Positions 8,147 to 42,632 of a DNA stretch of 64,000 nucleotides are shown here, piece after piece; positions within the stretch are counted from its first letter, which is position 1, and the number at the start of each line of letters is the position of its first letter. The stretch comes from Oribacterium sp. WCC10 (GTDB lineage Bacteria; Bacillota; Clostridia; Lachnospirales; Lachnospiraceae). Location: positions 248,001 through 312,000 of the forward strand of contig NZ_FOPH01000001.1 in the NCBI RefSeq assembly GCF_900113415.1, given 5' to 3'. The position numbers were made by a program, and so were the translations under genes. The notes below the pieces were generated by a model. It was not told the DNA's origin. It saw only the letters and a list, made by a program, of their open reading frames with translations, and did not search any database.

Positions 8147-8271
8147 AGGAAACGCTGATTAAAGCGTTTCTCCGGACGGATTTTCGATGAGAAGTGTAAA
8201 CTTCCTTTGAAAATCCGTGCCCCGGTGCCGGAGACTCTGAGGAAAAACTGATATAATCAGTGTTTCCTCAG
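8147..8271 (-). repeat. Dispersed three-hairpin repeat, copy 1A (behind trmD)
   Basis: Copy of the dispersed repeat, read from trmD on the minus strand. Hairpin 3 (CTGAGGAAA.../TTTCCTCAG) comes first, then a CTCCGG...CCGGGG linker, hairpin 2 (GGATTTTC.../GAAAATCC) and hairpin 1 (GAAACGCTTTAATCAGCGTTTC). The TGA stop codon of trmD is formed by the first bases of the element. Compare 17482, 33269, 35955 and 42506. Confidence 0.85.
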
Positions 8272-9050
8272 ATACTGTCAGTTGACTGTGTTTCCGTACC
8301 GTTAGTCTTTCTGCGACGCCTTTTCGGCTTCTTTGGAGCAAACTCGTCGGGATGCTCCGCAACGTACTTTTCATACAGATCCGGGCGGCGTTCTCTGGTT
8401 CTTTCAAGGCTCATCTGATGACGCCATTCATCAACCTTTTTGTGGTCTCCTGAAAGAAGGATCTTTGGAACGTAATGTTCTTCGAAATTTTCAGGTCTTG
8501 TATACTGAGGATATTCCAACAGTCCGTCAGAGAAACTTTCGATTTCATGAGACTCGTCTTTATTGAGTACTCCATGAACCAGGCGGGAAATGGAATCTAT
8601 CATGCTGAGGGCAGGTAGTTCACCGCCTGTCAGTACATAATCTCCGATGGAAACATTTTCAACATCCAGAATCTCGAGTGCGCGTTCGTCTATGCCCTCG
8701 TAGTGACCGCAAAGGAACAGGATATCTTCTTCCTGTGCCAGTTCCTCAGCCATCTTCTGATCAAATGTTCTGCCTTGTGGAGACATGAAAAGGACTCTAG
8801 CCGGTCTGTGTCCGATCTTGTTGACTATGTGCTTGTAACAGTCTACTACCGGCTGCACCTGCATGAGCATACCGGCTCCACCGCCGTAGGGATAGTCATC
8901 CACATGATTGTGGGCGTCTTTTGTATAGTCTCGTATATTGAAAGCGGTAACTGACATAAGTCCGGACTTGATAGCTCTTCCGGAAATGCTTTCTTTTGTG
9001 ACATTTTCGATGAGCTCCGGAAAAAGTGTCATCACGTAATAATTCTTCAT
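8268..9050 (-). CDS. trmD: tRNA (guanine-37-N1)-methyltransferase
   Basis: Knotted SPOUT-class enzyme that methylates G37 of tRNAs with SAM and helps prevent frameshifting. The 260-residue product has the family start MKNYYVMTLFPELI, the DYPYGGGAGMLMQ loop near residues 52-64, and the knot motifs ILFLCGHYEGIDER and SIGDYVLTGGELP. The C-terminus continues with a basic tail (KKPKRRRRK) and ends at a TGA contributed by the neighbouring repeat element. It overlaps rimM by 4 bases, so the two are probably translated together. Confidence 0.96.
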   Translation of the reverse strand: MKNYYVMTLFPELIENVTKESISGRAIKSGLMSVTAFNIRDYTKDAHNHVDDYPYGGGAGMLMQVQPVVDCYKHIVNKIGHRPARVLFMSPQGRTFDQKMAEELAQEEDILFLCGHYEGIDERALEILDVENVSIGDYVLTGGELPALSMIDSISRLVHGVLNKDESHEIESFSDGLLEYPQYTRPENFEEHYVPKILLSGDHKKVDEWRHQMSLERTRERRPDLYEKYVAEHPDEFAPKKPKRRRRKTNGTETQSTDSI

Positions 9051-9565
9051 AGATCTAAAAGTCCCGGTATAAGGTGTACCTTGATATATCCTTCTTCAGG
9101 AGCCTTCTCAAGTATAAACGGCTCACAATAAGGAATCATAAGGTCTTTTCCTTCTGTCTTTACAAGCATGACATCATGGGCACCTGTTTCGATGAACTCC
9201 TTAACGGTTCCGAGTTCTGTACCTTCATCAGTGATGACCTTGCAGCCAATGATGTCTCCGATGAAATATTCGCCTTCAGCGAGAGGGATGGCATCGGCTC
9301 TGTCTACATAAAGCTCTCCCTTACGGAACGGGATGACATCATCTATGTTGTCGAAGCCTGCGAACTTGACGATGGCAAGATTCTTGAAAAATCTTACATT
9401 CTGTACTTCAAGCTGGATCATATCCTTCATTGAACCTGAACGATCCAGCCAGACCTTCTTTAAATCATAGTATCTATCCGGATCATCAGTTGTCGGATAA
9501 ACCTTAACTTCGCCTTTAAGACCATGGGTGGTAACTACTGTACCGACTCTAAGTTTTTCCTGCAT
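9047..9565 (-). CDS. rimM: 16S rRNA processing protein RimM
   Basis: Assembly factor for the 30S head region that binds S19. The 172-residue product has the N-terminal RimM barrel (VGTVVTTHGLKGEVKV near residues 6-21) and a C-terminal PRC barrel-like part ending in MIPYCEPFILE...IPGLLDL. The ATG at 9565 has AAGGA ahead; the ATG 11 codons upstream lacks a site and overlaps a terminator-like hairpin region. It lies between khpA and trmD and overlaps trmD by 4 bases. Confidence 0.95.
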   Translation of the reverse strand: MQEKLRVGTVVTTHGLKGEVKVYPTTDDPDRYYDLKKVWLDRSGSMKDMIQLEVQNVRFFKNLAIVKFAGFDNIDDVIPFRKGELYVDRADAIPLAEGEYFIGDIIGCKVITDEGTELGTVKEFIETGAHDVMLVKTEGKDLMIPYCEPFILEKAPEEGYIKVHLIPGLLDL

Positions 9566-9589
9566 AATTTCCTTTATATTAACAACAAA

Positions 9590-9618
9590 ACTCAGCATAG
9601 TAAAAAACTATACTGAGT
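9590..9618 (-). terminator. Terminator or attenuator between khpA and rimM
   Basis: A 12-bp stem with one mismatch (ACTCAGTATAGT/ACTATGCTGAGT) and a short T loop is followed on the minus strand by TTTTGTTGTT. It lies 9 bases after khpA and 24 bases before rimM, so it probably reduces transcription from the ribosomal-protein part into rimM-trmD. Confidence 0.7.
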
Positions 9619-9627
9619 AATCAATGA

Positions 9628-9855
9628 TTATTTTATATCTACGGATACCTTGATATCTGCCTTACTAGCGGCAGCAGACATAACAGAACGGATTGCCTTT
9701 GCGATACGACCTGAACGTCCGATGACCTTACCCATATCCTGCTCATTCACAGAAAGGGTCAGGACGATCTCACCATCCCTGTTTTCCTCAACGACAGAAA
9801 CATCGTCAGGATTCTGAACAAGGGCTTTGGCAATTGTTTCGAGTAATTCCTTCAT
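9628..9855 (-). CDS. khpA: KH-domain RNA-binding protein KhpA (YlqC)
   Basis: Small single-KH-domain RNA chaperone; in Gram-positive relatives it partners with KhpB/Jag in growth and division control. The 75-residue protein is nearly all KH domain, with the GxxG RNA-binding loop in GKVIGRSGRIAKAIR near residues 42-56. It is located directly after rpsP, the conserved Firmicute order. Confidence 0.93.
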   Translation of the reverse strand: MKELLETIAKALVQNPDDVSVVEENRDGEIVLTLSVNEQDMGKVIGRSGRIAKAIRSVMSAAASKADIKVSVDIK

Positions 9856-9874
9856 TAGGTCTCCTCTCGGCGGA

Positions 9875-10114
9875 TTAGTTAATTCCGGCTCTCTTAAGAA
9901 GCTTTGCTACAGACTCAGTTGGCTGTGCACCGTTTGAAATCCACTGCTTAGCCTTCTCAGCATCAATCTTGATCTCTGATGGCTCAACACATGGGTTGTA
10001 TGTACCGATCTCCTCGATGAACTTACCGTTTCTTGGTGATCTTGAATCTGCAACGATTACTCTGTAGAAAGGTGCGTGAATCTGTCCCATTCTTCTTAAT
10101 CTGATCTTTAACAT
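9875..10114 (-). CDS. rpsP: 30S ribosomal protein S16
   Basis: Small-subunit protein needed for early 30S assembly. The 79-residue product starts [25 protein letters not shown] and includes the typical [10 protein letters not shown] motif. GGAG is placed 8 bases before the ATG. It is the first gene of the rpsP-khpA-rimM-trmD group; the 185-base gap before it holds an AACAGT-TGATT-ACTGTT hairpin but no clear promoter. Confidence 0.97.
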
Positions 10115-10299
10115 GGTTTTTTCTCCTATTTTTCAAAAAATAAATGTATATATGATCAACAGTTGATTACTGTTAAATCTATGGTTAATGCTTCTGTTCG
10201 GGCTGTATGGAATACAATACACCCCGGTGTTTGATTGATTCAGTTTAAATGTATCAATTACTTAATTTATATTGCGATTGTTCACTGACGGTGAGTGCA

Positions 10300-11697
10300 T
10301 CAGAAAGGAAATCTTCCCCCGCGACCAAAGCCGCCCAGATTTCCGAGATTACCGAGACCTCCGAAACCGCCTAAGCCCCCGCGACCGTGTTTGCTTCGCA
10401 TAGCACCGCCGAACTGCTTCATCATCTTGCGCATCTGCTCGAACTGTTTAACTATACGATTGACTTCTGCAATATCTACTCCTGCACCATTGGCGATACG
10501 ACGCTTTCTGGAAGGATTGATGAGATCGGGATTGGCTCTTTCCTTTGCTGTCATGGACTGGATGATGGCACGAACTTTACCGAGCTGCTTTTCGGTATCG
10601 TCCATATCGATATCCCCGAGTCCGGATAGACCTGGAAGCATCTTCAGGATACCGCCGAGGCCACCAAGCTTCGACATCTGATCCATCTGGTCCATGAAGT
10701 CGTTGTAGTCAAACTTACCTCTTGTAAGCTTGCCCATTGACTCACGGCTCTTCTCCTCGTCGATATTCTTGGCAGCTTTCTCGATAAGGGAAAGCACATC
10801 GCCCATGCCGAGGATTCTTCCGGCCATACGGTCCGGATAGAACTGCTCAAGGTCATCAAGTTTCTCGCCCATACCCAGGTACAAGATAGGCTTACCTGTC
10901 ATGGCCTTGATGGAAAGTGCGGCACCTCCTCGTGTATCACCGTCACACTTGGTGAGGATGACACCGTCTATGCCGACTTTGTCTGAAAATGTTTCGGCAA
11001 CATTAACGGCTTCCTGACCGGTCATAGCATCGACTGTCAGTACTGTCCACTGAACCGAAACAGCTTTCTTGATGTTTTCAAGCTCATCCATGAGCCTTTC
11101 GTCAATCTGTAAACGACCTGCGGTATCAAGGATAACTACGTTGTAGTGCTTTTCCTTTGCCTCGACGATAGCCCGTCTTGCTATCTCTACAGGATCTACC
11201 TTATCTCCCAGTGAGAAGAAAGGAACATTGACCTTCTCGGCATTGACTCTCAACTGGTCAATGGCGGCCGGTCTGTAAATGTCACAGGCTACAAGCACAG
11301 GTGTACGTCCGTTTGACTTGAACTTTCCCGCAAGCTTTGCAGCTGTTGTTGTTTTACCTGCACCCTGAAGACCTACCATCATGATAACGGAAATGTCACT
11401 CGCGGGCTTAAGCACGATTTCAGTAGTTTCAGAACCCATCATGGATGTGAGTTCATCATTGACGATCTTTACAACTGTCTGTGCCGGAGTAAGACTGTTG
11501 AGAATCTCTTCTCCGATTGCTTTCTCCTTGACCTTGGCAATAAAGTCCTTAACAAGTTTGAAGTTGACATCGGCTTCGAGGAGCGCCATACGTACTTCTC
11601 TGAGTGCCTGTGTTACATCATCTTCGGTAAGCTTTCCTTTATGACCGAGATTGGAAAATATATTGGTTAATCTGTCTGTCAGATTTTCAAACGCCAT
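10300..11697 (-). CDS. ffh: Signal recognition particle protein Ffh (SRP54)
   Basis: GTPase that binds signal sequences on nascent chains with SRP RNA and docks at FtsY. The 465-residue product has the N domain, a G domain with GLQGAGKT at 109-116, DTAGRLQ, and TKCDGDTRGG, then the Met-rich M domain with the SRKRRIANGAG RNA-binding motif. The last ~35 residues are a Gly-rich tail (GGLGGFGG repeats). Its start overlaps the ylxM stop by 11 bases. No SRP RNA gene was found in this window. Confidence 0.97.
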   Translation of the reverse strand: MAFENLTDRLTNIFSNLGHKGKLTEDDVTQALREVRMALLEADVNFKLVKDFIAKVKEKAIGEEILNSLTPAQTVVKIVNDELTSMMGSETTEIVLKPASDISVIMMVGLQGAGKTTTAAKLAGKFKSNGRTPVLVACDIYRPAAIDQLRVNAEKVNVPFFSLGDKVDPVEIARRAIVEAKEKHYNVVILDTAGRLQIDERLMDELENIKKAVSVQWTVLTVDAMTGQEAVNVAETFSDKVGIDGVILTKCDGDTRGGAALSIKAMTGKPILYLGMGEKLDDLEQFYPDRMAGRILGMGDVLSLIEKAAKNIDEEKSRESMGKLTRGKFDYNDFMDQMDQMSKLGGLGGILKMLPGLSGLGDIDMDDTEKQLGKVRAIIQSMTAKERANPDLINPSRKRRIANGAGVDIAEVNRIVKQFEQMRKMMKQFGGAMRSKHGRGGLGGFGGLGNLGNLGGFGRGGRFPF

Positions 11698-12001
11698 CTA
11701 TGATTTCTCCTGCCAGTTTCTGGATTTCTTTATCTTCTGTGTGCTCGAGTATCATTACAGCACGTTCACGTATATGCCTGAGTTTGGATTGAAGTCCGAG
11801 AGTGGTTTCTGTATCCTGAAGCTTTTTATCAGCTCTTCTGAAAAGCTCCTGAGCAGCCTGTCTTGATGTGCCGAGCTCCTCACCGATCTCTGTGAAGCTC
11901 ATATCATCAATTACGTGGTACTCATAAACCTTTCGCTGGTTTTCATTGAGCAATCCGCCGTAAAGCTCATACAGATTGCCGCGTACTACAAAATCATCCA
12001 T
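11687..12001 (-). CDS. ylxM: YlxM/p13 family SRP-associated HTH protein
   Basis: Small helix-turn-helix protein encoded just ahead of ffh in most Firmicutes; in streptococci it modulates SRP and FtsY GTPase activity. The 104-residue product contains the typical YGGLLNENQRKVYEYHVIDD segment and a sigma-like HTH (SFTEIGEELGTSRQAAQELFRRA). The ATG at 12001 is set by GGGAGA 6 bases upstream; upstream codons lie across the promoter. Confidence 0.92.
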   Translation of the reverse strand: MDDFVVRGNLYELYGGLLNENQRKVYEYHVIDDMSFTEIGEELGTSRQAAQELFRRADKKLQDTETTLGLQSKLRHIRERAVMILEHTEDKEIQKLAGEIIDGV

Positions 12002-12025
12002 AGAGTTCTCCCTCAAACCTTTGCT

Positions 12026-12053
12026 AGTATAACATAAAAAAAGCACCTGTCAA
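12026..12053 (-). promoter_or_regulatory. Promoter of ylxM-ffh
   Basis: On the minus strand TTGACA (12048-12053) and TATACT (12026-12031) are separated by 16 bases, close to the sigma-A consensus. The -35 box is part of one arm of the terminator hairpin behind it, so termination of the upstream transcript and initiation of ylxM-ffh share the same bases. Confidence 0.75.
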
Positions 12054-12079
12054 CAAAAAATATTGACAGGCGCTTTTTT
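12037..12079. terminator. Bidirectional terminator between ftsY and ylxM
   Basis: A 17-bp stem with one mismatch (AAAAAAGCACCTGTCAA/TTGACAGGCGCTTTTTT) has T runs on both strands. On the minus strand it would end the ftsY transcript just before the ylxM promoter. Confidence 0.8.
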
Positions 12080-12144
12080 GTTTTGAAAATAATTATGTTT
12101 ATTGAGATTAAAGATGGTGCACGGTTCTGGCCTGAGCGATGATA

Positions 12145-12367
12145 GGATTGAGCAGGTGGGGTGCGATTTTATAACGTAAAGCTACGGTGTGAAAAATCAA
12201 AACAGTCCCATTAGAAACACTTGGATTTTTCCTTGTTTCCCCCGGCAATTCTTAGTATTCATCAGGAATACTAAGAAACTGCCGGGGGCCTGGTGTTTCT
12301 TAGGGGGCTGTTTCAGATTTTTCCACCGAAGCGTCCCGTTATAAAATGCAATCCACCTGCTCAATCC
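12145..12367. repeat. 223-bp imperfect palindrome between ftsY and ylxM
   Basis: The two halves are near-complete inverted copies. The outer arms share GGATTGAGCAGGTGG and ATTTTATAACG, the middle parts share GAAAAATC, AAACAG and AGAAACAC, and the centre is CCCCCGGCA/TGCCGGGGG with TTCTTAGTATTC-ATCAG-GAATACTAAGAA. One arm has about 15 extra bases. As RNA it would be one long hairpin. No open frame of note lies in it; it looks like a mobile or structural intergenic element. Confidence 0.85.
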
Positions 12368-12470
12368 CAGTGGCGTTCAAGTTGAAACGCGGAGCTCTCT
12401 TTAGCCGTTCCATTGATCATCTGGTTAATGCAGGATTATTATTGGGGAAACTTGCCCAAAATCAGTAAAA

Positions 12471-13343
12471 TCAATCCTCGAATATGGAATCCACGTACTC
12501 TTTGGAATCAAAGCGTCGCAGATCAGAAGCCTTTTCACCTACACCGATATACTTTACAGGGAGTCCAAGCTCTGACTGCACGGCAAGTGCGATACCGCCC
12601 TTGGCTGTTCCGTCCATCTTTGTAAGGATGATGCCTGTTACTTCACAGGCATCTTTGAATATCTCGGCCTGTGACATGGCATTTTGTCCGGTGGTGGCAT
12701 CGAGAACTACAAGTGTCTCTCTGTAGCCTTCGGCAAATTCCTTATCAATGATTCTGTTGATCTTCCCGAGTTCCTGCATGAGATTCTTCTTATTATGAAG
12801 TCTTCCCGCTGTGTCAATGATGAGGAGATCCGCATTCTTTCTTTTGAATGACTGAAGGGCATCAAATACTACTGCGGCAGGATCGGAACCTTCCTTCTGT
12901 GCTATGACATCAACGTCGATACGGTTTCCCCATTCCTTGAGCTGCTCAATGGCACCGGCTCTGAATGTGTCGGCTGCCGCAAGAATAACTCTCTTATTCT
13001 GGTCCTTGAAGTTCTTTGCGAGCTTTCCGATGGAAGTAGTCTTTCCGACGCCATTTACACCGATGACGGAAATGATGCTTTTCTGTTTCTCAAAGTCATA
13101 GTAGGAATCATCCACACGCATCAGTTCGTAAAGGTAATCACGAAGAATCTTTTTGATTTCTCTGGTGGTGTTCACTCCCTGGCGGGAAGCTTCGGTTTTT
13201 ACAGCGTCAATAACCTTCAGGGTTGTAGTGACGCCTACATCGGACATGATCATCGCATCTTCCAGATCCTCGTAGAATGCGTCATCCGCAACTTCGTTGG
13301 ACTGAAAGATATTGTTTATAAGTTTTGAAAAGAAATTAGCCAT
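12471..13343 (-). CDS. ftsY: Signal recognition particle receptor FtsY
   Basis: Membrane-docked GTPase that receives SRP-ribosome complexes. The 290-residue product has a short N domain, a P-loop GVNGVGKT at 95-102, the ADTFRAGA motif, DTAGRLHNKK, TKMDGTAKGG and the C-terminal GVGEKASDLRRFD. The long acidic A domain of enteric FtsY is absent, as usual in Firmicutes. It begins 40 bases after smc and GGAGA precedes the ATG. Ffh and YlxM, its partners, are encoded downstream in a separate unit. Confidence 0.96.
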   Translation of the reverse strand: MANFFSKLINNIFQSNEVADDAFYEDLEDAMIMSDVGVTTTLKVIDAVKTEASRQGVNTTREIKKILRDYLYELMRVDDSYYDFEKQKSIISVIGVNGVGKTTSIGKLAKNFKDQNKRVILAAADTFRAGAIEQLKEWGNRIDVDVIAQKEGSDPAAVVFDALQSFKRKNADLLIIDTAGRLHNKKNLMQELGKINRIIDKEFAEGYRETLVVLDATTGQNAMSQAEIFKDACEVTGIILTKMDGTAKGGIALAVQSELGLPVKYIGVGEKASDLRRFDSKEYVDSIFED

Positions 13344-13383
13344 GAGCTGATATCTCCTTTGTGATAGATGAGTTTTTCCTTAA

Positions 13384-16300
13384 TCAGGCGTCCAGCTGAT
13401 CCTGTACCAGATCTACGGATACCAGAGTTGATACACCCTTCTCCTGCATGGTGATACCGAACAGACGGTCGGTATTCTCCATGGTACCTCTACGGTGTGT
13501 GATGACGATGAACTGTGTCTGTACAAGCGTGTGCAGATACTCTGCAAAACGTGATACGTTTGAGTCATCCAGCGCCGCCTCAATCTCGTCAAGTAGACAG
13601 AATGGTGAAGGTTTCAGACTTTGGATGGCAAACAGAAGAGCTATGGCGGTAAGGGCCTTCTCTCCACCGGAAAGCTGCATCATGTTCTGAAGCTTCTTTC
13701 CGGGCGGCTCTGCGATGATGGAGATGGATGCTGTAAGAACATCCGGATCATCCGTGTCAAGCTCGAGTCGTCCCTGTCCGCCACCGAAAAGTATCTTGAA
13801 GGTCTTGTTGAACTGTTCCTGTATGAGTTTGAAGTTTTCATTGAACTGTTTACGCATACCCTGATCAAGCTCTTCGATGATCTCGTTAAGAGATTTCTCT
13901 GATTCTGTAAGATCAAGGTACTGGTTATTCAGGAATTCATATCGCTCGGATACTTCCTTATACTGCTCAATGGCATCAAGGTTAACAGGACCGAGAGCCT
14001 TTAACTGCCCCTTCAACTGATTAACAAGTGTGCGGACCTCGTTGGTGTTCTTGTACTCATCGGAATAACGTTTCTTTGCTTCTTCGTAGGTGAGACCGTA
14101 CTCGTCAAACATGTAGTTGGTGAGCTTATCGATCTTTTCATCCAGCTTTTCCTTCTTGTTCTGGACACGCATGGATTCCTTTTCCATATCAAGGAGTCGA
14201 ACCGATATTTCGTCCTTTTTCTGGAAGAATGAGGCACGCTCTTCCTGAAGTTTCGCCTTGCTTTCTTCATTTTTTGCCATTTGTCCGTTGAGAGCTTCGG
14301 CTGCGGTGTCGGCATTCTGAATCAATGCTTCAAGTTCACGGATCTTCTCTTCCTTTCCCTGAAGAACACTGTCGGAATTCTGCTGTGAATCCTCCATCAT
14401 ACCCTTTTCGCCGGTAATATCTTCGAGCTCAGAGTTGAGTCTGTGAAGATTCTCTGTGACGAAATCTGTACGTGTCGAAAGTGAAGAATACTCGACATTG
14501 ATCTGTGAAGCAATGGCCATGGTCTGAGTATTCTGCTCGATGGTGAGCTTTTCTATCTCCTGACGATGAGACTCGACAGATGCCTTGGCAATGTCTCGTC
14601 TGCTTTCGGAATCCGAAAGTTTGCGACTGAGTTCATCGATGGTCTTCTTTGATGTCTCGATGTGTTCTTCTATCTCTTCAAGTTCACGCTTACGTCCCAT
14701 AAGGTTCGAATTGTTCTTGAAGGAACCACCGGAGATTGAACCTCCCGGATTAAGAAGATCACCCTCGAGAGTAACGATACGAAGGGACTGGCGGTACTTC
14801 CTCTGAATCTGAAGCGCGGTTTCAATCCTGTCAACTACCAGAACTCTTCCGAGAAGGTACTCGGAAAGCGTCTTATACTTCGAATCAAACTTGATGAGGT
14901 CACATCCAAGACCGATGGCCCCCTTCTCGGAACTTGCTCTTTCGCAGTTCTCGTCACGTTTTCCTTTAATGTTGGTCAAAGGAAGGAATGTGGCACGACC
15001 GTAACGGTGCTGCTTGAGGAACTGTACCATGTTTTTGGCGGTATTTTCGTCTTCGGTTACCACGTTCTGAATGGAACCGCCTAGAGCTGTCTCAATGGCA
15101 GTTTCATAATCCTTTGGAACTTCAATGAGATCTGCCACAACGCCGAGGATTCCATGCTCCTGATCACGACGATCCATGACCATCTTTATGGCATTACCAT
15201 AGCCCTCATAACGCTCAGCCAGATTGCGGAGAGTTTCCAGACGGTTGCGGAGACTGTCATGCTCACGGGTTTTGTGATTTATCTGATCGCGTAACTGCTG
15301 ATTCATCTCGCCAAGTTTCATAACGAGCTGTGAATCTGATGCAATCAGCTGTTTGACCTCTTCCAGTCTCAGGTTAAGTCTTTCCAGTTCTTTGCGCTGC
15401 TCTTCAATGTTTGAAAGGAATCCGTCACTCTTTATATTGGAAGCCTTTTCGGACTCCTTTACAGGACGGTCTTCAAGCTGGAAATCAGCCCCCATACAGG
15501 ATGATACCGTAAGCTCTGTTTCATCCATGGTTGAGCGGATCATCTCGAGATCAAGATCGATATTCTCCATCATCTCGTCGGTGCCGGCTTTATTATCCTT
15601 GATGAAACTGATCTGTTCTTTTATCCACTTCAGGAGACTGAGGTTATCCTCAATCTGAGAGATGCGGTCGAACATATCCTTCTGTAATGCATTGATACGC
15701 TGGGTATAGTGGAGGGCATTGTTCTTCTCTGTATTTATCTGTTCGTTTAAGACATCTATCTGTCCGCGGAGATTGGTCTTTAAAAGGTCTGATTTGTTGA
15801 TCTCATCCTTTGCCCGGCTGAGTTCTTCATCCAGAGCTCTGATTTTTGATTCAATCTCTGTGTACTTGCCGTTCAGCTCTTCGGATTCCTTCTTTACGGC
15901 ATCCAACTCGTCATTGACGGTGTTGGCGTTTTCATTGACAGAATCGAGACCCTTCAGGGTATCGTCCATGTCGCGGATAAAGAGGTTTGAATCTGCATTG
16001 ACAAGTTCATCACGGATAGAGAGGTACTGTCTTGCTTCGTCGGACTGTTTCTTGAGAGGCCCGACCTGACGTTCCAACTCATTCAGAATGTCAGTGACAC
16101 GGGTGAGGTTGGCCTGCTCATCGCTGAGCTTTTTCTCAGCCAAAGCCTTACGACGCTTGAACTTAACGATACCTACTGCTTCATCGAAAAGGTCTCGGCG
16201 TTCCTCCGGTTTACCGGAAAGAATCTTCTCTACCTGACCCTGTCCGATGATACTGTATCCATCTTTACCGATACCGGTATCGTAGAAGAGCTCGTTGACA

Positions 16301-16668: not shown

Positions 16669-17356
16669 ATCCGGTTTCCGCCTTAATCTGCTTTAATGTC
16701 TGGTAGGCAGCGCCCTGCTCACCCTTCTTCTTGCTTGAGCCTTCACCGATACCATACTCCTTGTTGTCGAGGATGGCCTGTACACGATAGAATCTGTCGT
16801 GACATGGTCCGGACTCTTCTATGACCTTATATTCCAGTTCCATCTTGTTCTGTGAAACATATTCCTGAAGAACAGTCTTGGCATCTCTGTAAAGGCCTGT
16901 ATTTTCAATGTCAGACAGCACAAATTTTTTCACGAATTTCTCTGCCTGCTCAAAACCGCCATCCAGATACATTGCACCTATAACAGATTCAAATGCATCC
17001 GAAATGACTGAATCACGATTGTTGATACATTCTCTTGCTTCACCCTTGCCTAAAATGATGTAATCACCAAGATTTACCTTGCGGGCAGCTTCTGCAAGTG
17101 TTGGCTCACATACCAGCGCGGCACGAACCTTGGTCATGACACCCTCTTGTAATACAGGAGTGCGATTGAAAAGAAATACGCTTGATATCAACTCGAGAAC
17201 AGCATCTCCTAAAAATTCCAGTCTCTGATTTGATGCTTCCTTGGGTTCTCCGTTTTCGTTGCTGAATGATGGATGAGTAAGAGCATGTTTCAGCAGTCCT
17301 ACATCATTGAAATGATACCCCAGCGCGTCCTGGAGCATTTCTAAATTGGTGTTCAT
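16649..17356 (-). CDS. rnc: Ribonuclease III
   Basis: Double-strand RNA endonuclease for rRNA processing and hairpin RNA turnover. The 235-residue product has the catalytic signature RLEFLGDAVLE at 45-55, the second acidic box DAFESVIGAMYLDGG, and a C-terminal dsRNA-binding domain (DAKTVLQEYVSQ through GEGSSKKKGEQGAAYQTL). It is followed by smc with a 20-base overlap. The 302-base gap to acpP is filled with hairpins and repeat copy 1B. Confidence 0.97.
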   Translation of the reverse strand: MNTNLEMLQDALGYHFNDVGLLKHALTHPSFSNENGEPKEASNQRLEFLGDAVLELISSVFLFNRTPVLQEGVMTKVRAALVCEPTLAEAARKVNLGDYIILGKGEARECINNRDSVISDAFESVIGAMYLDGGFEQAEKFVKKFVLSDIENTGLYRDAKTVLQEYVSQNKMELEYKVIEESGPCHDRFYRVQAILDNKEYGIGEGSSKKKGEQGAAYQTLKQIKAETGYVFKIY

Positions 17357-17411
17357 TAATTCTCCTTTATGGTTTTGTGATAGGCCGTTATGTAACGACC
17401 GGAAAGTAAAT

Positions 17412-17476: not shown

Positions 17477-17481
17477 TTCAA

Positions 17482-17606
17482 CTTGGCAAAATACTGATTA
17501 TATCAGTGTTTTGCCAAGAGCCTCCGGCGCCGGGGCACGGATTTTTAAAGGAAGTTGATGTTTCACATCGAAAATCCGGCCGGGGAAACGCTTTAATCAG
17601 CGTTTC
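17482..17606 (+). repeat. Dispersed three-hairpin repeat, copy 1B (between acpP and rnc)
   Basis: Full copy in the opposite orientation to copies 1A, 1C, 1D and 1E. On the plus strand it reads hairpin 3 (CTTGGCAAAA.../TTTTGCCAAG), linker CTCCGGCGCCGGGG, hairpin 2 (GGATTTTTAAAGG.../CATCGAAAATCC), hairpin 1 (GAAACGCTTTAATCAGCGTTTC). The outer stem GGCAAAA/TTTTGCC replaces GAGGAAA/TTTCCTC of copy 1A with pairing intact. Confidence 0.85.
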
Positions 17607-17621
17607 ATTAGGCATCGCAGG

Positions 17622-33154: not shown

Positions 33155-33268
33155 AGGTTTCGTTTTGTCTCAGCGCCCTCGTTTCCACGGTAATCTGCGT
33201 TGAGACCCTTTCACTGATATAAAGAGATATTTCCGGGATCCAATAATGCTTCCTTAGTGCACGATTTA

Positions 33269-33341
33269 GAGAAACGCTGATTAAAGCGTTTCCCTGGCCG
33301 GAGTCACTGATAAAACACGGGGATTGCCTGTATTTTATCGG
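33269..33341 (-). repeat. Dispersed three-hairpin repeat, copy 1C (internally deleted)
   Basis: Shortened copy between ispG and polC. It keeps hairpin 1 (GAAACGCTTTAATCAGCGTTTC) and a hairpin-3 equivalent, GATAAAATAC/GTGTTTTATC at 33309-33339, with yet another paired stem sequence. Hairpin 2 is gone: CTCCGGC joins directly to CAGGGAAACG, as expected from a deletion between the two CCGG-containing linkers. Confidence 0.65.
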
Positions 33342-33358
33342 ATACAGCAGTTTTTTTC

Positions 33359-34417: not shown

Positions 34418-34529
34418 ATATAAATCTCCATTCCGTCGGGTTTTCCCCGACATAAATAGTAGTTAATTATGATCAGACCCGGAAATTGTTGATTCAGGCA
34501 CATCCGGAGAAATGCCGGTATTCCGGCAA

Positions 34530-35864: not shown

Positions 35865-35954
35865 GTAGTTCTCCTCTATAAATATATGTTTTTTCCGATT
35901 ATAGCTGACATAAAGACAGTCAGTTAATATCTTTGTTTAAAGGACTATCATCTT

Positions 35955-36081
35955 AAGGAAACGCTTATCAAGGCGTTTCCCCGGTGGGATTTTCGATGCG
36001 AAGCATCAATTTCTTTTGAAAATCCGTGTCCCGACGCCGGAGGTTCTATGGAAAACACTGATTAAGTCAGTGTTTCCATAG
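35955..36081 (-). repeat. Dispersed three-hairpin repeat, copy 1D (at the dxr 3' end)
   Basis: Full copy. On the minus strand hairpin 3 (CTATGGAAACACTGA.../TTTTCCATAG) begins inside the end of dxr and encodes its last residues (METLT) and TAA stop. The linker CTCCGGCGTCGGGACACGG, hairpin 2 with an inner GATGC-TTC-GCATC stem, and hairpin 1 (GGAAACGC/GCGTTTCC) follow. Confidence 0.85.
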
Positions 36082-37222
36082 AATTGGTCTTTACGAAGTC
36101 TCTTGCCCACTTTTCTATAGAGAGAATTTCCTGAAGGGTAGGTGAAACCACCAGATTCTTCTCGTGAGCGTCCATGGCTTCTTCGATAACATCTGCTATC
36201 TCAAGGAAATCTATACGATTCTCAAGGAACATTGCTACGGCCTCTTCGTTGGCTGCATTGTATACAGTAGGCATGGAACCGCCTGTTCTTCCAGCACGGT
36301 ATCCCAGGGCAAGTCCCTTAAATGTCTCCATATCCGGATTCTCAAAGGTAAGTGTGGCGAGCTCTGCAAGGTCAAGACGCTTGTCCTCTGTGAGCGGATG
36401 ACGGTCAGGAGCATAAAGAGCATACTCTATAGGGATGCGCATATCCGGAAGACCGAGCTGTGCCTTGACTGAACCGTCAACATACTGTACCGCTGAATGA
36501 ACTATGGACTGAGGCTGTACCACAACCTTTATCATATCTACAGGTACATCAAAGAGCCAATGGGCTTCAAGTACTTCAAGTCCCTTGTTTACCATGGTTG
36601 AAGAATCTATGGTTATCTTTCTTCCCATTGCCCAGTTGGGGTGCTTTAATGCATCCTCCTTGGTTTTGCCGCGAAGATCTTCTCTCTTCTTTCCTCTGAA
36701 AGGTCCGCCCGAAGCGGTGAGAAGAATCTGTTCTATACGATTGTGCGGCTCTCCTGTAAGAGACTGCCAGATGGCACTGTGCTCAGAATCGATGGGCTTT
36801 ATCTCGATGCCACACTCTTCAGCGAGAGGCATGATGATGTGACCTGCGCAAACGAGGGTCTCCTTGTTGGCAAGAGCCACCTTCTTGTGAGCCTTAAGGG
36901 CTGCTATGGTAGGCTGAATGCCGATCATACCCACAACAGATACCACCACTTCATCACAGCTTTGCATGGTGGAGATCTCTATGAGGCCGTCCATGCCTGA
37001 AAGAACTTTCACCGGCAGACCATAGGATCTGAATATTTCAGCTTTTGTCTCATCATAGATGCATACGGTTTCCGGATGCAGTTTTTCGACCTGCTCACGA
37101 AGTTTCTCGATGGATCCGTAAACAGCGAGACCTGTAACAACAATCTCTGGATCATCCTTTATGACGTCAATGGTCTGGGTTCCAATGGAACCTGTAGAAC
37201 CAAGAATAACTAATCTTCTCAT
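36062..37222 (-). CDS. dxr: 1-deoxy-D-xylulose-5-phosphate reductoisomerase
   Basis: Second enzyme of the MEP isoprenoid pathway, making MEP from DXP with NADPH. The 386-residue protein has the nucleotide fold GSTGSIGTQT near residues 8-17, ALANKETLVCAG, the metal site PIDSEHSAIWQ, and the catalytic loop ASGGPFRG. The ATG at 37222 has GGAGAA upstream. The last five residues and stop are encoded by repeat copy 1D, so the natural C-terminus has been replaced or extended there. Confidence 0.96.
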   Translation of the reverse strand: MRRLVILGSTGSIGTQTIDVIKDDPEIVVTGLAVYGSIEKLREQVEKLHPETVCIYDETKAEIFRSYGLPVKVLSGMDGLIEISTMQSCDEVVVSVVGMIGIQPTIAALKAHKKVALANKETLVCAGHIIMPLAEECGIEIKPIDSEHSAIWQSLTGEPHNRIEQILLTASGGPFRGKKREDLRGKTKEDALKHPNWAMGRKITIDSSTMVNKGLEVLEAHWLFDVPVDMIKVVVQPQSIVHSAVQYVDGSVKAQLGLPDMRIPIEYALYAPDRHPLTEDKRLDLAELATLTFENPDMETFKGLALGYRAGRTGGSMPTVYNAANEEAVAMFLENRIDFLEIADVIEEAMDAHEKNLVVSPTLQEILSIEKWARDFVKTNSMETLT

Positions 37223-37367
37223 GAATAATTTCTCCGTTTTCAGTATCAGACTTTCGAAGTATCCTTCCGGGGAGTCTGACATAATACATTAGAGTTTATG
37301 GTATATGAATATGATCACTTTAATCTATATTCAAAACGTGATAGTTTTGTGAAAACCTGCGCTTCCT

Positions 37368-38219
37368 TTAATTTAAAAATGTCAGTGCAAAGTATACTGC
37401 CGGAGCGGTAAAGATCATTGAATCAAATCTGTCCATGATTCCGCCATGTCCCGGAATGATGGTTCCGTAATCCTTTATGGAGTAGTCGCGCTTTATTCCG
37501 GAAGCTGTAAGGTCGCCCACCATGGATATAAGTGCACCGATACCACAGGCTATTGCACAGGTGGCGGCAGGATCTATGATGAAAGTGAATCTGCTTTTGA
37601 AGATACTTGCGTAGATAAAACCTAAAAGCGCAGCACCTATAACTCCGCCAAAGGCGCCTTCTACAGACTTTTTCGGGCTGAGTATGGGAGTCATCTTATG
37701 CTTGCCGAAGAGCATGCCGACGCAATATGCACAGGTATCGGCACCCCAGCTTGCAAGGAATATCAGCCAGACCAGATAAGCCCCGTCAGGCATCTCCCTT
37801 GTCTGATAGAGATAACTCATCATGATACCGGCGTAGCAGACACACATAAATGCTTTTGCTACTGTTGAAATCTTGTAGGTGGGATAGGTAATAACATAAA
37901 AAGCCATAAGTGCCATGAGACTAAGCACGATCATGATGGTGAAATAGTCATTTATATTGAACCATACCAAAACATAGTAGCTTATGGTGGTCAGATATCC
38001 TATGAAACCCAATGATCTCTTTTCGATGCCAAATACTCTGTAGAGTTCATACAGTCCGATCATTGAGGTGAAGAATGTAAGAAGGAAGAGCAATGGTCCG
38101 CCCATAGGTACTATCACAACTGAGCAAAGCACAAGTATGATACCGCTTATAAGACGGGTGATGAATGAACTCATCTTCTTTTCGTTATGATCTTTTTTCA
38201 AATTATCTGTTTCTGTCAT
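37368..38219 (-). CDS. cdsA: Phosphatidate cytidylyltransferase
   Basis: Makes CDP-diacylglycerol from phosphatidic acid and CTP, the branch point of phospholipid synthesis. The 283-residue protein has about eight membrane helices and the C-terminal signature SVGDLTASGIKRDYSIKDYGTIIPGHGGIMDRFDS-like segment, here starting SMVGDLTASGIKR and ending GGIMDRFDS. The start at 38219 has AGGAAAA upstream; 38174 is also possible. It follows uppS by 115 bases. Confidence 0.94.
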   Translation of the reverse strand: MTETDNLKKDHNEKKMSSFITRLISGIILVLCSVVIVPMGGPLLFLLTFFTSMIGLYELYRVFGIEKRSLGFIGYLTTISYYVLVWFNINDYFTIMIVLSLMALMAFYVITYPTYKISTVAKAFMCVCYAGIMMSYLYQTREMPDGAYLVWLIFLASWGADTCAYCVGMLFGKHKMTPILSPKKSVEGAFGGVIGAALLGFIYASIFKSRFTFIIDPAATCAIACGIGALISMVGDLTASGIKRDYSIKDYGTIIPGHGGIMDRFDSMIFTAPAVYFALTFLN

Positions 38220-38334
38220 ATATTTTCCTGAGTGATCAAAGATACTGTACATGCTGCCGGAATGCAGCAAATGTACTAATACAGTTAACAACAAAGACAG
38301 GCTTCTTTTTTATAAAAGAAGCCTGAGTCATAAA

Positions 38335-39087
38335 TTATTTTTTTAATCTGCCGCCGAAACGACGCTCACGGCTGTTAAAGTTGTCAATGGCCTTGAGCAG
38401 TTCTTCTTTGTTGAAGTCAGGCCAGAGTACAGGCGTGATATAGTACTCGGCATACGCACTTTGCCAAAGAAGATAATTGGATATACGGAATTCACCTGAG
38501 GTTCTGATGACAAGATCAGGATCCGGCATACCGGCTGTATCGAGGTATCCTGCAAACTCCTGCTCTGTCAGAGATTCGATCTCTTCCTCGGTCTTTCCTG
38601 ACTTGACGGCCTCAATAGTGAATTTTCTTATGGCACGGACTATCTCGTCACGAGAACCGTAATTAACGGCAAAAACGAATGTCATACCTGTATTCTGTGA
38701 GGTTTCCTGCTCCAGCTTTTCGATACCCTCACGGATATCAGGAGCAAAACGGCTTCTCTCACCAATCATGCGGGCTTTGACATTGTGCTCGTTTGCAACC
38801 TTAATGAGCTTAACCATATATAAACGGAAAAGCTTCATAAGTGCGCCGACTTCTTCTTCTGAGCGCTTCCAGTTCTCTGTGGAGAAACCGTAAACCGTCA
38901 GGTATTTGACACCGAGTCTGGCGCAATCCGCAACGATGGTTTCAAGAGTCTCGCATCCCTGTTTGTGTCCCATGGCTCTGGGAAGCCCTTTTCTCTCTGC
39001 CCAGCGTCCGTTACCGTCCAGAATTATGGCGATATGTGAAGGGATATTTCTCCCTTCACTGTCTATGATATCATTAATGTTTTCCAT
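38335..39087 (-). CDS. uppS: Isoprenyl transferase (undecaprenyl diphosphate synthase)
   Basis: Cis-prenyltransferase that builds the C55 lipid carrier of cell-wall precursors. The 250-residue protein has the catalytic segment HIAIILDGNGRWA with Asp24, GHKQGCETLETI, YLTVYGFSTENWKR and the C-terminal RTSGEFRISNYLLWQSAYAE. Its ATG lies one base after the frr stop, so translation is probably coupled. Substrate comes from the MEP pathway genes in the same cluster. Confidence 0.96.
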   Translation of the reverse strand: MENINDIIDSEGRNIPSHIAIILDGNGRWAERKGLPRAMGHKQGCETLETIVADCARLGVKYLTVYGFSTENWKRSEEEVGALMKLFRLYMVKLIKVANEHNVKARMIGERSRFAPDIREGIEKLEQETSQNTGMTFVFAVNYGSRDEIVRAIRKFTIEAVKSGKTEEEIESLTEQEFAGYLDTAGMPDPDLVIRTSGEFRISNYLLWQSAYAEYYITPVLWPDFNKEELLKAIDNFNSRERRFGGRLKK

Positions 39088-39088
39088 A

Positions 39089-39643
39089 TCAGACTGTCAT
39101 GAGTTCCTTATTCTTAGCTTCTACTGACTTGTCGATCTTCTCGCACATATGATCAGTGAGCTCCTGAATGTCCTTTGTTGCACGTGTAAGGTCATCCTCT
39201 GTCATCTCAGAAGACTTCTCAAGCTTCTTGGCAAGATCCATGGCATCACGACGGATATTACGGATAGCAATCTTGGCCTCTTCGCCCTTCTTTTTTACGT
39301 CCTTTGTGAGCTCCTTACGTCTTTCCTCTGTAAGCTCCGGGAAAACAAGACGGATAACTGTTCCGTCGTTTGTAGGATTGATACCGAGCTCAGACATATT
39401 GATAGCCTTCTCGATCTCCTTGAGGAGAGTCTTGTCCCATGGCTGGATCTGGATGAGACGAGCCTCAGGAACGGAAATATTACCTACCTGCTGAATAGGT
39501 GTAGGTGTTCCGTAGTAGTCTACCATGATACGGTCAAGAACATGAGGGTTTGCACGACCTGCACGGATAGTTGCAAGCTCTGACATCAGATTGTCATGAG
39601 TTTTGTGCATCTTCTCGATATAAATAGTAAATTGATCATCCAT
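39089..39643 (-). CDS. frr: Ribosome recycling factor
   Basis: Splits post-termination ribosomes together with EF-G. The 184-residue protein has the normal length and the family segments ATIRAGRANPHVLDRI, YYGTPTPIQQVGNISVPEAR and IRNIRRDAMD. AGGAGG is placed 7 bases before the ATG at 39643. It lies between pyrH and uppS, the classic order. Confidence 0.97.
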   Translation of the reverse strand: MDDQFTIYIEKMHKTHDNLMSELATIRAGRANPHVLDRIMVDYYGTPTPIQQVGNISVPEARLIQIQPWDKTLLKEIEKAINMSELGINPTNDGTVIRLVFPELTEERRKELTKDVKKKGEEAKIAIRNIRRDAMDLAKKLEKSSEMTEDDLTRATKDIQELTDHMCEKIDKSVEAKNKELMTV

Positions 39644-39698
39644 AATTATTCCTCCTAAACCCCTTTTCGGGGAAATGTTCATTATATTATTTTATAAA

Positions 39699-40403
39699 TC
39701 ACGCAGTGACTCTTGTTCCGGTGATCTTCCCCTTTAGAGCATTGGAAATACCGTTTTTTTCATTAAGTGAGAATATAGCCAATGGCATGTGATTCTCCAT
39801 GCATATAACTGAAGCTGCAAGGTCGATGACGCCGAGACGCTTGTCAACAACCTCCTGTATAGAAAGCTCATCGTACTTTTTGGCGTCAGGGTTAACCTTA
39901 GGATCTGAATCGTAAACGCCGTCGATGGCCTTGGCAAGGAGGATCTCATCGCATTCAAGCTCAACAGCACGAAGTACAACACCTGTATCTGTTGAGAAGT
40001 ATGGATGGCCTGTGCCGCCTGCGCAGAATACAACCGCACCTTCTGACATAGCCTTGAGAGCCTCATCCTTATTGAAGAGATCAGCCATATCTCCGATCTG
40101 GATGGATGACATAACCCTGGTCTTCATACCCTGTGTACGGAATATCTCTGATACATAAATACAGTTCATAACTGTGGCGAGGATTCCGACCTGATCAGCC
40201 TTATAGCGGTCAACAGCCTCTGACTGACGTCCTCTCCAGAAGTTTCCGCCACCGATAACGATAGCAATCTCAACACCTGCATCAACAGCTGACTTGACTT
40301 CCTGAGCAACCTCTCTGATGGTATCATCGTCAAAACCGAAATGTTTCTCACCGGCAAGTGCCTCGCCGGAAAGCTTCAGCATAACTCTGCGTTTATCTGA
40401 CAT
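39699..40403 (-). CDS. pyrH: Uridylate kinase
   Basis: Phosphorylates UMP to UDP; the bacterial hexameric enzyme is regulated by GTP and UTP. The 234-residue product begins KRRVMLKLSGEALAG, with VIGGGNFWRGR and the TVMNCIYVSE segment. The ATG at 40403 has GGAG 7 bases upstream. It is the first gene of the pyrH-frr-uppS-cdsA-dxr-rseP-ispG-polC cluster; in many Firmicutes rpsB-tsf precede it directly, but here the opp operon does. Confidence 0.96.
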   Translation of the reverse strand: MSDKRRVMLKLSGEALAGEKHFGFDDDTIREVAQEVKSAVDAGVEIAIVIGGGNFWRGRQSEAVDRYKADQVGILATVMNCIYVSEIFRTQGMKTRVMSSIQIGDMADLFNKDEALKAMSEGAVVFCAGGTGHPYFSTDTGVVLRAVELECDEILLAKAIDGVYDSDPKVNPDAKKYDELSIQEVVDKRLGVIDLAASVICMENHMPLAIFSLNEKNGISNALKGKITGTRVTA

Positions 40404-40517
40404 ACAAAATCTCCATTCTGCCAAAACATGGCATAAAGTGAGAAAGATAACCCTTCTCACTGATATCTTCTATTAGATTGTAATGCGGCTAATATTAATA
40501 ACCTACATTAAAAAATA

Positions 40518-40546
40518 TTCTAGCATATTAAAATCTTAGGGGCAAC
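40518..40546 (-). promoter_or_regulatory. Putative promoter of the pyrH cluster
   Basis: On the minus strand TTGCCC (40541-40546) and TAGAAT (40518-40523) are 17 bases apart, about 115 bases before pyrH. A GTGAGAA/TTCTCAC hairpin (40438-40460) lies in the leader. Confidence 0.5.
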
Positions 40547-40624
40547 ACAGTAAACAACCGTGCCGCTTCTTTTGATATGGTATGCTTCACATGAGTCATG
40601 ACATCAGTACACAGATAATTAAAA

Positions 40625-40653
40625 AGCCCCGCGGCAGTATATGCCGCAGGGCT
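40625..40653 (-). terminator. Intrinsic terminator of the opp operon
   Basis: AGCCCTGCGGCA and TGCCGCGGGGCT pair with one mismatch and are followed on the minus strand by TTTTTAATT, 14 bases after the oppA stop. Confidence 0.9.
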
Positions 40654-40666
40654 AAAACATCAATAT

Positions 40667-42325
40667 TTATTCAAATGAACCGTACATAAGGTACCAGTAG
40701 CCGTATGGTGAGTGCCATGTACCCTTGAGGTTTGACTTCTGGAGCCAGAACTCGTTGTAGTATGCAAGAGGAGCCATAGCAGCATCCTTAAGCATAACCT
40801 GCTCAGCCTGGTGGAGAAGGTCATAGTGCTCGTTGATGTCGGTTGTATTTCTTGCATCATTAACAAGCTTATCGAACTCTGCTGATGAGTACTTGCCATC
40901 GTTGTTTCCGTTGGTTGTTTCAAGGAGGTTGATCATATTTGAAGGATCATCCCAATCATATACCCAGCCGTAACGTGCTGCATCAAAGTTTCCTGAACGA
41001 CGGTCAGCAGTTACAGTCTTCCACTCCTGGATGTTTACATTCATTGTAACACCAAGCTCTGCCCATGCAGACTGGAGATACTCGGCAACTGCCTTGTGAT
41101 ATGATGTATCGTTTGTAAGGTAGTCAAATGCAGGGAAGCCTTCACCATTTGGATAGCCTGCCTCTGCAAGAAGCTCCTTAGCCTTCTCGAGATCAGCCTC
41201 GTAGTTATCGATGTCAAAGTGATCTCCATACTTCTCCTTGGTTACTTCTTCGAAAGAAGAACCTTCTGCAGCATCAGAAACACCTGTACCTACAAAGTTT
41301 GTTGCAGGTGAATATGTACCCTGCATGATAGTTTCTGCAACATACTTACGATCGATTGCGAGTGAAAGTGCCTCACGTACTCTTGCGTCATCAAAAGGAG
41401 CCTTCTGAGTATTGAATACTACAGAATATGTTCCCATGAGCGGCTCAACATGGAACTCTTCATTGCCCTCGAGTGAAGGAATCTCTTCTGTAGGAACATC
41501 CTTGATAAGGTCGATCTCGCCCTGGTTGTAAGCAGTGTATGATGTGTTTGAATCCTCGATAAGGTGCCATACGATCTTGTCGAAAGTGATGTTTTCTGCA
41601 TCCCAGTAGTTAGGATTCTTTTCAAATACGATCTGAGAACCGTCTGTGAACTCAGTCATATAGTAAGGACCGTCTGTAATGTAGGTTGCAGGATCTGTTG
41701 TCCAGCCGTCTCCTGCAGCTTCGATAGTTGCCTGCTGTACAGGAACTGTAACTGCAAATGCGGCAATCTTGTCAAAGTACACACAAGGGCTTGAAAGATG
41801 AACAACAAAGGTGTTGTCATCAGGAGCCTCAACCTGAAGTGCATCAACATCGCCCTGTGATGCCTCTTCATAACCTGCGATAACATTGAGAAGGTCATAG
41901 CCATAAGGTGCAGCTGTATTTGGATCTGCGATTCTCTTCCATGAGTAAACAAAGTCGTTTGCTGTAAGAGCGCTTCCATCTGACCACTTGAGATCAGGTC
42001 TCAGATGGAAAGTCCATGTAAGACCATCCTCTGACTGCTCCCAGCTCTCAGCAAGACCGCCTACAACATCGTTGTTCTTGTCGAATTTGAGAAGACCTTC
42101 AAAAGCATGGATGATCATGTTTGCACCATCTGATGCTGAGTTAAGTGCAGGGTCAATAGTCTCAGGAGAAGGTCCGATCTGAACGTCGATGACATTCTCA
42201 GCTTCGCCTCCCTGTGCCTGACTTTCTGCAGCAGGTGTAGAAGTTGAAGATGAACCGCCACAGGCTGACAGAACAAGTGCTGCAGCGAGTGATGATGCAA
42301 GTACAGCAGTTACTTTCTTTTTCAT
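40667..42325 (-). CDS. oppA: Oligopeptide ABC transporter substrate-binding lipoprotein
   Basis: Extracellular peptide receptor (solute-binding family 5) for the OppBCDF importer. The 552-residue precursor has a lipoprotein signal ending LSAC (Cys22), a Ser/Gly linker, and family-5 features such as ETIDPALNSASDGANMI, GLTWTFHLRPDLKWSDGSALTANDFVYSWKR and the late ARYGWVYDWDDPSNM. It is last in the operon and is separated from oppF by repeat 1E and a 180-base leader with its own AAGGAGG site, which may allow separate expression. Confidence 0.95.
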   Translation of the reverse strand: MKKKVTAVLASSLAAALVLSACGGSSSTSTPAAESQAQGGEAENVIDVQIGPSPETIDPALNSASDGANMIIHAFEGLLKFDKNNDVVGGLAESWEQSEDGLTWTFHLRPDLKWSDGSALTANDFVYSWKRIADPNTAAPYGYDLLNVIAGYEEASQGDVDALQVEAPDDNTFVVHLSSPCVYFDKIAAFAVTVPVQQATIEAAGDGWTTDPATYITDGPYYMTEFTDGSQIVFEKNPNYWDAENITFDKIVWHLIEDSNTSYTAYNQGEIDLIKDVPTEEIPSLEGNEEFHVEPLMGTYSVVFNTQKAPFDDARVREALSLAIDRKYVAETIMQGTYSPATNFVGTGVSDAAEGSSFEEVTKEKYGDHFDIDNYEADLEKAKELLAEAGYPNGEGFPAFDYLTNDTSYHKAVAEYLQSAWAELGVTMNVNIQEWKTVTADRRSGNFDAARYGWVYDWDDPSNMINLLETTNGNNDGKYSSAEFDKLVNDARNTTDINEHYDLLHQAEQVMLKDAAMAPLAYYNEFWLQKSNLKGTWHSPYGYWYLMYGSFE

Positions 42326-42505
42326 AAATACCCTCCTTAAAAATAGGATTATCAGCTTTTAAAATGCTGAAATGATCATTGTGCTGTTTTGATCCGTGCA
42401 CCGGATATATATGATTTGGGTCAGGATGCTTTCGTATGAAAGGTTGTCCAAAGATAATTCAGGCAGACATGAAACTATACTGACCCTTAAATCACTGAAA
42501 TCTTT

Positions 42506-42632
42506 CAGGGAAACGATGATTAAAGCGTTTCCCTGGTCGAATTTTCGATGCGAAGCATCAACTTCTTTTAAAAATCCGTACCCCGACACCGGAGGCTCTG
42601 AGGAAATGCTGATTATATCAGTGTTTCCTCAG
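42506..42632 (-). repeat. Dispersed three-hairpin repeat, copy 1E (behind oppF)
   Basis: Full copy. On the minus strand hairpin 3 (CTGAGGAAACACTGATATA...CCTCAG) starts at the oppF stop, whose TGA is formed by the element. The linker CTCCGGTGTCGGGG, hairpin 2 with an inner GATGC-TTC-GCATC stem, and hairpin 1 follow. In hairpin 1 the outer stem CAGGGAAACG/CGTTTCCCTG is longer than in other copies. Confidence 0.85.

Follow-up and report, generated by a model that had tools for sequence, protein, structure and literature searches.

A four-hairpin intergenic repeat of Lachnospiraceae with the sequence features of an IS5-linked miniature inverted-repeat transposable element

Does a repeated intergenic sequence with several stable hairpins persist because its host uses the fold, or because the sequence moves? 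A 64,000-nucleotide stretch of Oribacterium sp. WCC10 (contig NZ_FOPH01000001.1, positions 248,001 to 312,000; here called the window) raises this question, since a mostly intergenic element of about 120 bp occurs in it as four full copies and a truncated fifth. The original prediction described a dispersed repeat with three covarying hairpins in five copies and proposed a high-copy family under selection for a folded form; that observation is partly confirmed and its interpretation partly supported. Judged by sequence, the element has the characteristics of a miniature inverted-repeat transposable element (MITE) of IS5-family insertion sequences. The best explanation, held with high confidence, is that it shares its ends with these insertion sequences and was very probably moved by their transposase in trans.

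Ends, target repeats and likely partner insertion sequences

The spread of the element is explained by two features that had been overlooked, terminal inverted repeats and a target-site duplication. Sequences resembling GGAAACRCTGATTA stand at both ends as terminal inverted repeats, and the element is short, multi-copy and non-coding, with room for at most 40 codons, as a MITE should be. Among the 59 of 70 full copies in the window's genome that could be parsed, the left and right flanking tetramers are equal in 18, against 9.2 expected by permutation (p=0.001), and a stricter parse of 50 copies gives 15 against 8.2 (p=0.002). Named genomes show the same excess (24/39 against 15.3, reached by 0 of 5000 permutations), as do other genomes (44/74 against 37.7 when shuffled within genomes, p=0.002). 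The next base beyond the tetramers has no left-right association in any of these data sets. The counts point to a 4-bp target-site duplication, another mark of a bacterial MITE, in all three.

Candidate partners come from protein searches. The IS5-associated domain PF05598, searched in 21 genomes, has matches at 20 loci in 13 genomes. At loci L394, L395, L396 and L397 the transposase gene is bounded at both ends by GGAAACGCTGATT or a one-base variant; L396 and L397 apparently represent one genome under two handles (G154 and G020). A protein search added a fourth insertion sequence, in G186, and 6 of 43 genomes match in the transposase protein search, G154 and G020 being counted separately. Together these yield four distinct insertion sequences of about 1.23 kb, in G181, G021, G154 and G186, with ends 1.22-1.24 kb apart. 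The ends, GGAAACGCTGATTA, are common to the element and the insertion sequences, agreeing at 13/13 bases or with one change. By this comparison, the element shares its ends with an autonomous element, represented by four insertion sequences of other genomes.

All four insertion sequences are flanked by identical 4-bp repeats: CTAG in G181 and G154, TTAG in G021 and CTAA in G186. Each reads YTAR, matching the target duplication given for IS5 in the relevant passage of PMC10359306. The three scanned proteins (G181, G021 and G154) match NF033581 at E<=5e-85, with 285-307 bits against a cut-off of 140, and carry both DDE_Tnp_1 (PF01609) and DUF772 (PF05598). The G186 transposase is 62% identical to the query and is assigned to IS5 by similarity alone. 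Apparent remnants also occur: in G017, which has 22 MITE matches, two such ends 602 bp apart enclose fragments of a transposase and are flanked by differing tetramers (TTAG and TTAA), and G030 has a transposase fragment and one such end at a contig edge.

In the proposed mechanism, the two MITE ends, each with the terminal repeat GGAAACGCTGATTA, would be the recognition sites of an IS5-type transposase, which would move the MITE; insertion into a YTAR-like tetramer would create the 4-bp direct repeat. Insertions would survive in intergenic DNA or at the 3' end of a gene, whose stop codon the tetramer may carry. Resident copies would then decay, some being reduced to single hairpins by deletion between direct repeats in the left arm of the first hairpin (A) and the inner arm of the last (C). 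The support is sequence-based and consists of the shared ends, the target repeats on both insertion sequence and MITE, the placement of copies, the chimeric solo hairpins, the patchy distribution and the scant constraint on stems A, B and D within genomes. We infer mobilisation of the MITE in trans and past activity in the window's genome, whose assembly lacks the transposase.

Several observations weigh against this explanation. The window's genome has no transposase match at E<=1e-8 in a 97% complete assembly. Among 250 genomes of the family, nearly one per genus, 8 have the transposase and 9 the hairpin, and only 2 have both (p=0.03); the transposase is present in 2 of the 4 high-copy carriers of this draw (p=0.005). 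Five further transposase relatives from the same draw (L422-L426) lack these ends. Element and insertion sequences agree in the 4-bp YTAR-type target repeat and in their ends, but the element is gene-free, and beyond the ends no common sequence is visible by eye. In the window's genome 41/59 copies carry unequal tetramers. No clean empty site was recovered, the flanks in relatives being 70-95% alike: 27 site-relative pairs with both flanks, from seven relatives, contain no element copy by eye, in DNA too diverged for clean empty sites. Finally, the evidence includes no observed transposition event.

Architecture, copies and genomic placement

The modules run in the order A-B-D-C, opposite to the direction of the original prediction, whose hairpin 1 is A and hairpin 3 is C. 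Coordinates given here are those of the copy near 42.5 kb (copy 5, + strand). Hairpin A (GGGAAACGCTGATTAAAGCGTTTCCC; 42509-42532) comprises the left terminal inverted repeat and its complementary arm. Hairpin B (42536-42581, limits taken from the consensus) has an outer stem, CGGATTTTC/GAAAATCCG, an inner GATGC-GAA-GCATC hairpin and an unpaired pyrimidine-rich stretch. The small hairpin D, GCC-GGA-GGC, lies between B and C at a position (42588-42596, limits again from the consensus) where copy 5 is imperfect; the three hairpins first described are present, and D is a fourth that was missed and that covariation across genera brings out. Hairpin C (CTGAGGAAACACTGAT..ATCAGTGTTTCCTCAG; 42598-42632) joins the right terminal inverted repeat to an inner complementary arm; in copy 5 the CTGA of this inner arm pairs in addition with TCAG, the target repeat on the right. 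The typed consensus folds at -74.1 kcal/mol, compared with -31.4 in shuffles (z = -11.4).

Copy 5 occupies 42509-42628 (+; wider extent 42504-42633) between identical TCAG tetramers at 42505-42508 and 42629-42632. The right one contains the stop codon of the open reading frame (ORF) at 42629-43615 (-), whose counterpart ends at the same codon in G013 but not in G004 or G008. Copy 1 (8148-8267, +; wider extent 8143-8272) lies between TTTA (8144-8147) and TCAG (8268-8271), the latter containing the stop codon of ORF 8268-9050 (-). Copy 4 (35957-36077, +; wider extent 35952-36082) extends over the final codons of ORF 36062-37282 (-) and supplies it with a new tail: the protein ends in KIVR* in seven relatives and in element-coded METLT* here.

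Copy 2 is in the reversed orientation (17487-17607, -; wider extent 17482-17612), and the outer arms of its hairpin C are changed yet complementary (CTTGGCAAAA/TTTTGCCAAG). In this copy the two arms of the C hairpin, at 17482-17518, carry new, mutually complementary bases. Single copies at C15:86666 and C13:46506 show the same, their C hairpins also extending past the usual end; the pattern in all three looks as though one arm had been copied to remake the other. The remaining copy, at 33266-33303 (+), consists of hairpin A and a few further bases. Four of the five predicted copies are therefore full, and the fifth, originally placed at 33265-33341, is truncated and homologous only over about 33265-33306. 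The hairpin that follows it (to 33341, GATAAAA/TTTTATC) had been taken for its hairpin 3 and is unrelated, as it lacks the CACTGAT..ATCAGTG core. In the sister species G004 and G011, a different solo hairpin (GGGAAACACCGATACTATCGG..TTCCC) occupies the intergenic site orthologous to window position 33262.

Searches of the whole genome bear out the expected high-copy family. The end motif GGAAACRCTGATTA occurs 148 times at <=1 mismatch, against 4 for a reversed control pattern, and the 24-nt hairpin A occurs 58 times at <=2 mismatches, against 0. The covariance-model search that the original prediction had proposed, combined with BLAST, gives 119 non-overlapping places at E<=0.01 in 384,360 examined bases of the 3.64-Mb genome: 70 full copies, 21 left ends only, 7 right ends only, 19 solo hairpins and 2 others. 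Of these, 12 are weak (under 20 bits). The searches covered the best 40 of 143 BLAST candidates and the best 150 of 2168 covariance-model candidates, and more copies are possible.

By a simple purpose-made gene caller, 118/119 places lie outside genes, some overlapping a gene end. Where a gene 3' end faces hairpin C, the stop codon falls within the right tetramer in 9/44 cases, copy 5 included. The element could instead be a structured RNA, a regulator, terminator or mRNA stabiliser that the host keeps for its fold, and its very stable folding and its position beside genes, often at 3' ends, are what such an RNA would lead one to expect. Orientation speaks against it, as the full copies have no preference relative to genes: of the 69 outside genes, 21 run along both neighbours and 26 against both, with 9 at divergent and 3 at convergent sites (as scored) and 10 without a neighbour in the examined DNA.

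Covariation between genera and decay within genomes

The covariation test suggested in the original prediction was applied to a cross-genus set of 29 elements, made up of 26 of 40 composites and 3 from the window's genus, with outlying lengths and some near-duplicates dropped. In this set 93.8% of cells are paired and 27/46 pairs show a double change. Double-changed cells number 136, far above the 40.8 in shuffles (none of 500 reaches this value), and shifting the partners lowers every measure. Hairpin A is invariant here because the scan demanded it and is therefore uninformative; B, D and C were free to vary.

Resident copies give a different picture. Across 98 copies from the window's genome, mutation is almost as frequent at paired sites (0.134) as at unpaired ones (0.157). 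Over the whole fold, double changes are above chance (59 against 33.9), and hairpin C holds 45 of 78 of them in the 98-copy set. In A, B and D they are near chance, with the exception of one B pair (4 against 1.0, p=0.003); the excess in C falls on four pairs, two of which include the target tetramer. The covariation originally reported for hairpin 3 (C) is real, and part of it comes from pairing between its inner arm and the 4-bp target repeat beside it. In hairpin 1 (A), double changes within this genome are no commoner than chance predicts, and the outer CAG at 42.5 kb belongs to the flanking target repeat. Selection on the fold, as opposed to copying alone, is supported between genera and finds no such support from stems A, B and D of resident copies.

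Five further genomes were compared on folds predicted for each consensus, and some of the tested stems differ; the consensus sequences of G019 and G025 are predicted to pair end to end. Observed against expected double changes are 5/4.7 in G025, 5/3.9 in G028, 1/0.5 in G154 and 3/1.7 in G021, with none to test in G019. Paired and unpaired variation is 0.014/0.055 in G019, 0.065/0.035 in G025, 0.045/0.125 in G028, 0.026/0.039 in G154 and 0.059/0.062 in G021. The stems may be under weak constraint in some of these sets. Overall, sequence variation within genomes shows little sign of constraint on A, B and D and resembles near-neutral decay.

These data complete the case on the structured RNA. 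The strong cross-genus covariation and the lower variability of paired sites in G019 and G028 suit a host RNA, but G·T and A·C pairs are equally frequent in the window's genome (229 and 221, p=0.74) and not clearly different across genera (33 and 24, p=0.29), and outside stem C the resident copies have no more double changes than chance predicts. Nor was hairpin A found at 2 mismatches in 241/250 family genomes, a threshold that diverged forms would escape. No Rfam family matches above its gathering score in the window copies or in elements from 11 carrier loci, and in window 8000-8400 the sub-threshold matches have E values of 0.75 or worse; the expectation that the repeat is not an already described element thus holds for Rfam. 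A host RNA is, on balance, most improbable. Two related proposals were dropped. A strand-specific fold was rejected since G·T and A·C are alike, G021 (3 against 13, p=0.02) being the exception in one of six sets; and an excess of G·U over A·C in a 32-copy table was not upheld on 98 copies.

Another source of covariation would be templated correction of imperfect palindromes through polymerase template switching, without selection on the fold. This explanation would account for nothing but the covariation and does not conflict with a MITE. It gains from the behaviour of hairpin C, where pairing between the inner arm and the adjoining target repeat is seen in 18/50 copies of the window's genome against 8.0 expected (p=0.0002) and in 51/74 copies of other genomes against 42.7 (0 of 10000), and from single copies with extended new palindromes. 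In resident copies, however, double changes are not in excess in A, in D or, one pair apart, in B, nor are they in G025, G028, G154 and G021; correction therefore seems to happen too seldom to account for B and D across genera. It is a possible but not the favoured source of the cross-genus signal.

The association of the inner arm of C with the right tetramer might also mean that this arm acts as a guide that chooses the target. As a 4-mer, however, the arm does not match the left tetramer above expectation, either in the window's genome (8/50 against 5.9, p=0.20) or in others (34/74 against 32.5, p=0.29). Single left positions do deviate, with p=0.002 at position 1 and p=0.01 at position 4 in the window's genome and 0.04 and 0.03 in the others. 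Local correction is preferred to the guide model.

Most simply read, these results mean that structure is important in the lineage that spreads; the main alternative is templated correction of palindromes. The structure seems to be kept in that lineage rather than in resident copies, as would befit a selfish element, and the four-hairpin architecture is presumably retained because it is important for transposition or its control. A more specific version, in which folding is required for the MITE to move, is rather unlikely. Here A and C would restore a duplex terminal repeat out of a single strand, with B and D positioning the two ends, and the substrate of a DDE transposase could be a cruciform or a folded single strand, such as might form on the lagging strand of a replication fork. 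Structure would then be selected only during spread, in keeping with the observed contrast of strong covariation between genera and little in resident copies. More generally, a selfish structured element can be told from a host RNA by setting covariation among genera against near-neutral decay within genomes; judged by covariation alone, the element would have looked like a regulatory RNA.

Solo hairpins, related repeat families and distribution

Solo hairpins add to the evidence on decay. Solo C hairpins in the window's genome are often chimeras with an A-type left and a C-type right side: GC appears in the arm in 6/12, compared with 3/60 full copies (p=4e-4), and a YTAG-like left tetramer in 6/12, compared with 2/60. 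Deletion between the direct repeats GGAAACRCTGAT would yield such chimeras, an origin that can be likened to that of solo long terminal repeats. In named genomes, solo hairpins have equal tetramers in 9/19 cases against 6.0 expected (p=0.04), these being 19 of 37 rows picked by the right tetramer.

Palindromes that occur both paired and solo also characterise REP sequences and the BIMEs they form, which are moved by RAYT transposases of the Y1 HUH type acting on single-stranded hairpins, and the element, with two inverted hairpins and a linker plus solo forms, resembles them. As described in the relevant parts of PMC3733652, REP/BIME systems have a GTAG or CGTC tag and a Y1 transposase, neither of which was found for the element. 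Its hairpin foot is YTAR-like and site-dependent, with no GTAG or CGTC tag. No Y1_Tnp match occurs in the window's genome or in 13/23 carrier genomes, and among 20 examined Y1 loci of the genus, only 2 contain anything resembling the end, in both cases a weak match (2 mismatches) that lacks the hairpin. The 4-bp target repeats and the DDE insertion sequence with matching terminal repeats fit another mechanism. By the tests of Y1 transposase and foot tag, the element is not a RAYT-type REP, and mobilisation by such an enzyme is hardly credible. Across genomes, Y1_Tnp is present in 9/17 of the genus (the window's own being without it) and in 10/23 carriers, with no link to the element. One of the genus genomes, G004, has thirty Y1 transposase matches, against none in the window's genome.

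Other repeat families were compared by their published descriptions, as far as the relevant passages give them. RUP of Streptococcus pneumoniae, 107 bp long with 108 intergenic copies and ends resembling an insertion sequence (PMC2229807, PMC3049150), is similar in size and copy number, but is set apart by description through its tie to IS630-Spn1 and its TA target. BOX of S. pneumoniae is modular and tightly folded and expanded through the chromosome in the past (PMC3049150), features that the element shares by description. In both BOX and RUP the two ends pair together, whereas the covarying structure of the element gives each end a hairpin of its own. The CIR repeat of Caulobacter and Brucella (PMC2229807) is closer in plan, with two arms joined by a linker and no single end-to-end stem; unlike the element it carries GANTC, and the passage leaves its mechanism of mobility open. 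The open-access papers searched yielded no description of the element and none on its motif letters. The element adds to Lachnospiraceae genomes a large MITE family without a description found in those papers, together with its likely transposase.

The family is distributed unevenly. A scan for exact hairpin A, with one genome per species, found at least 115 stretches. Among the 80 matches listed, 56 are titled Lachnospiraceae, 15 have vaguer titles, and 7 come from Blautia, Oribacterium, Roseburia and Hominisplanchenecus, four genera of the family. In the draw of 250 family genomes, the hairpin is found at <=2 mismatches in 9, four of which have 6 to 58 hits, so that the distribution is patchy at a threshold that more diverged hairpins would escape. 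Viral contigs gave 0 exact matches to the hairpin-A pattern. The last 2 of the 80 matches listed (L201 and L259) are from Candidatus Mailhella, of the Desulfovibrionaceae, where an exact hairpin A is followed by different sequence, which suggests either inter-phylum transfer or a sister element.

A separate structured sequence also lies in the window. Rfam places a Clostridiales-1 RNA (RF01699) at 58109-58241 (-), and the segment 58209-58248, mostly within that match, is repeated at 47102-47141 with 83% identity. A similar ACTTTTGACCC motif adjoins a solo hairpin at C41:110809.

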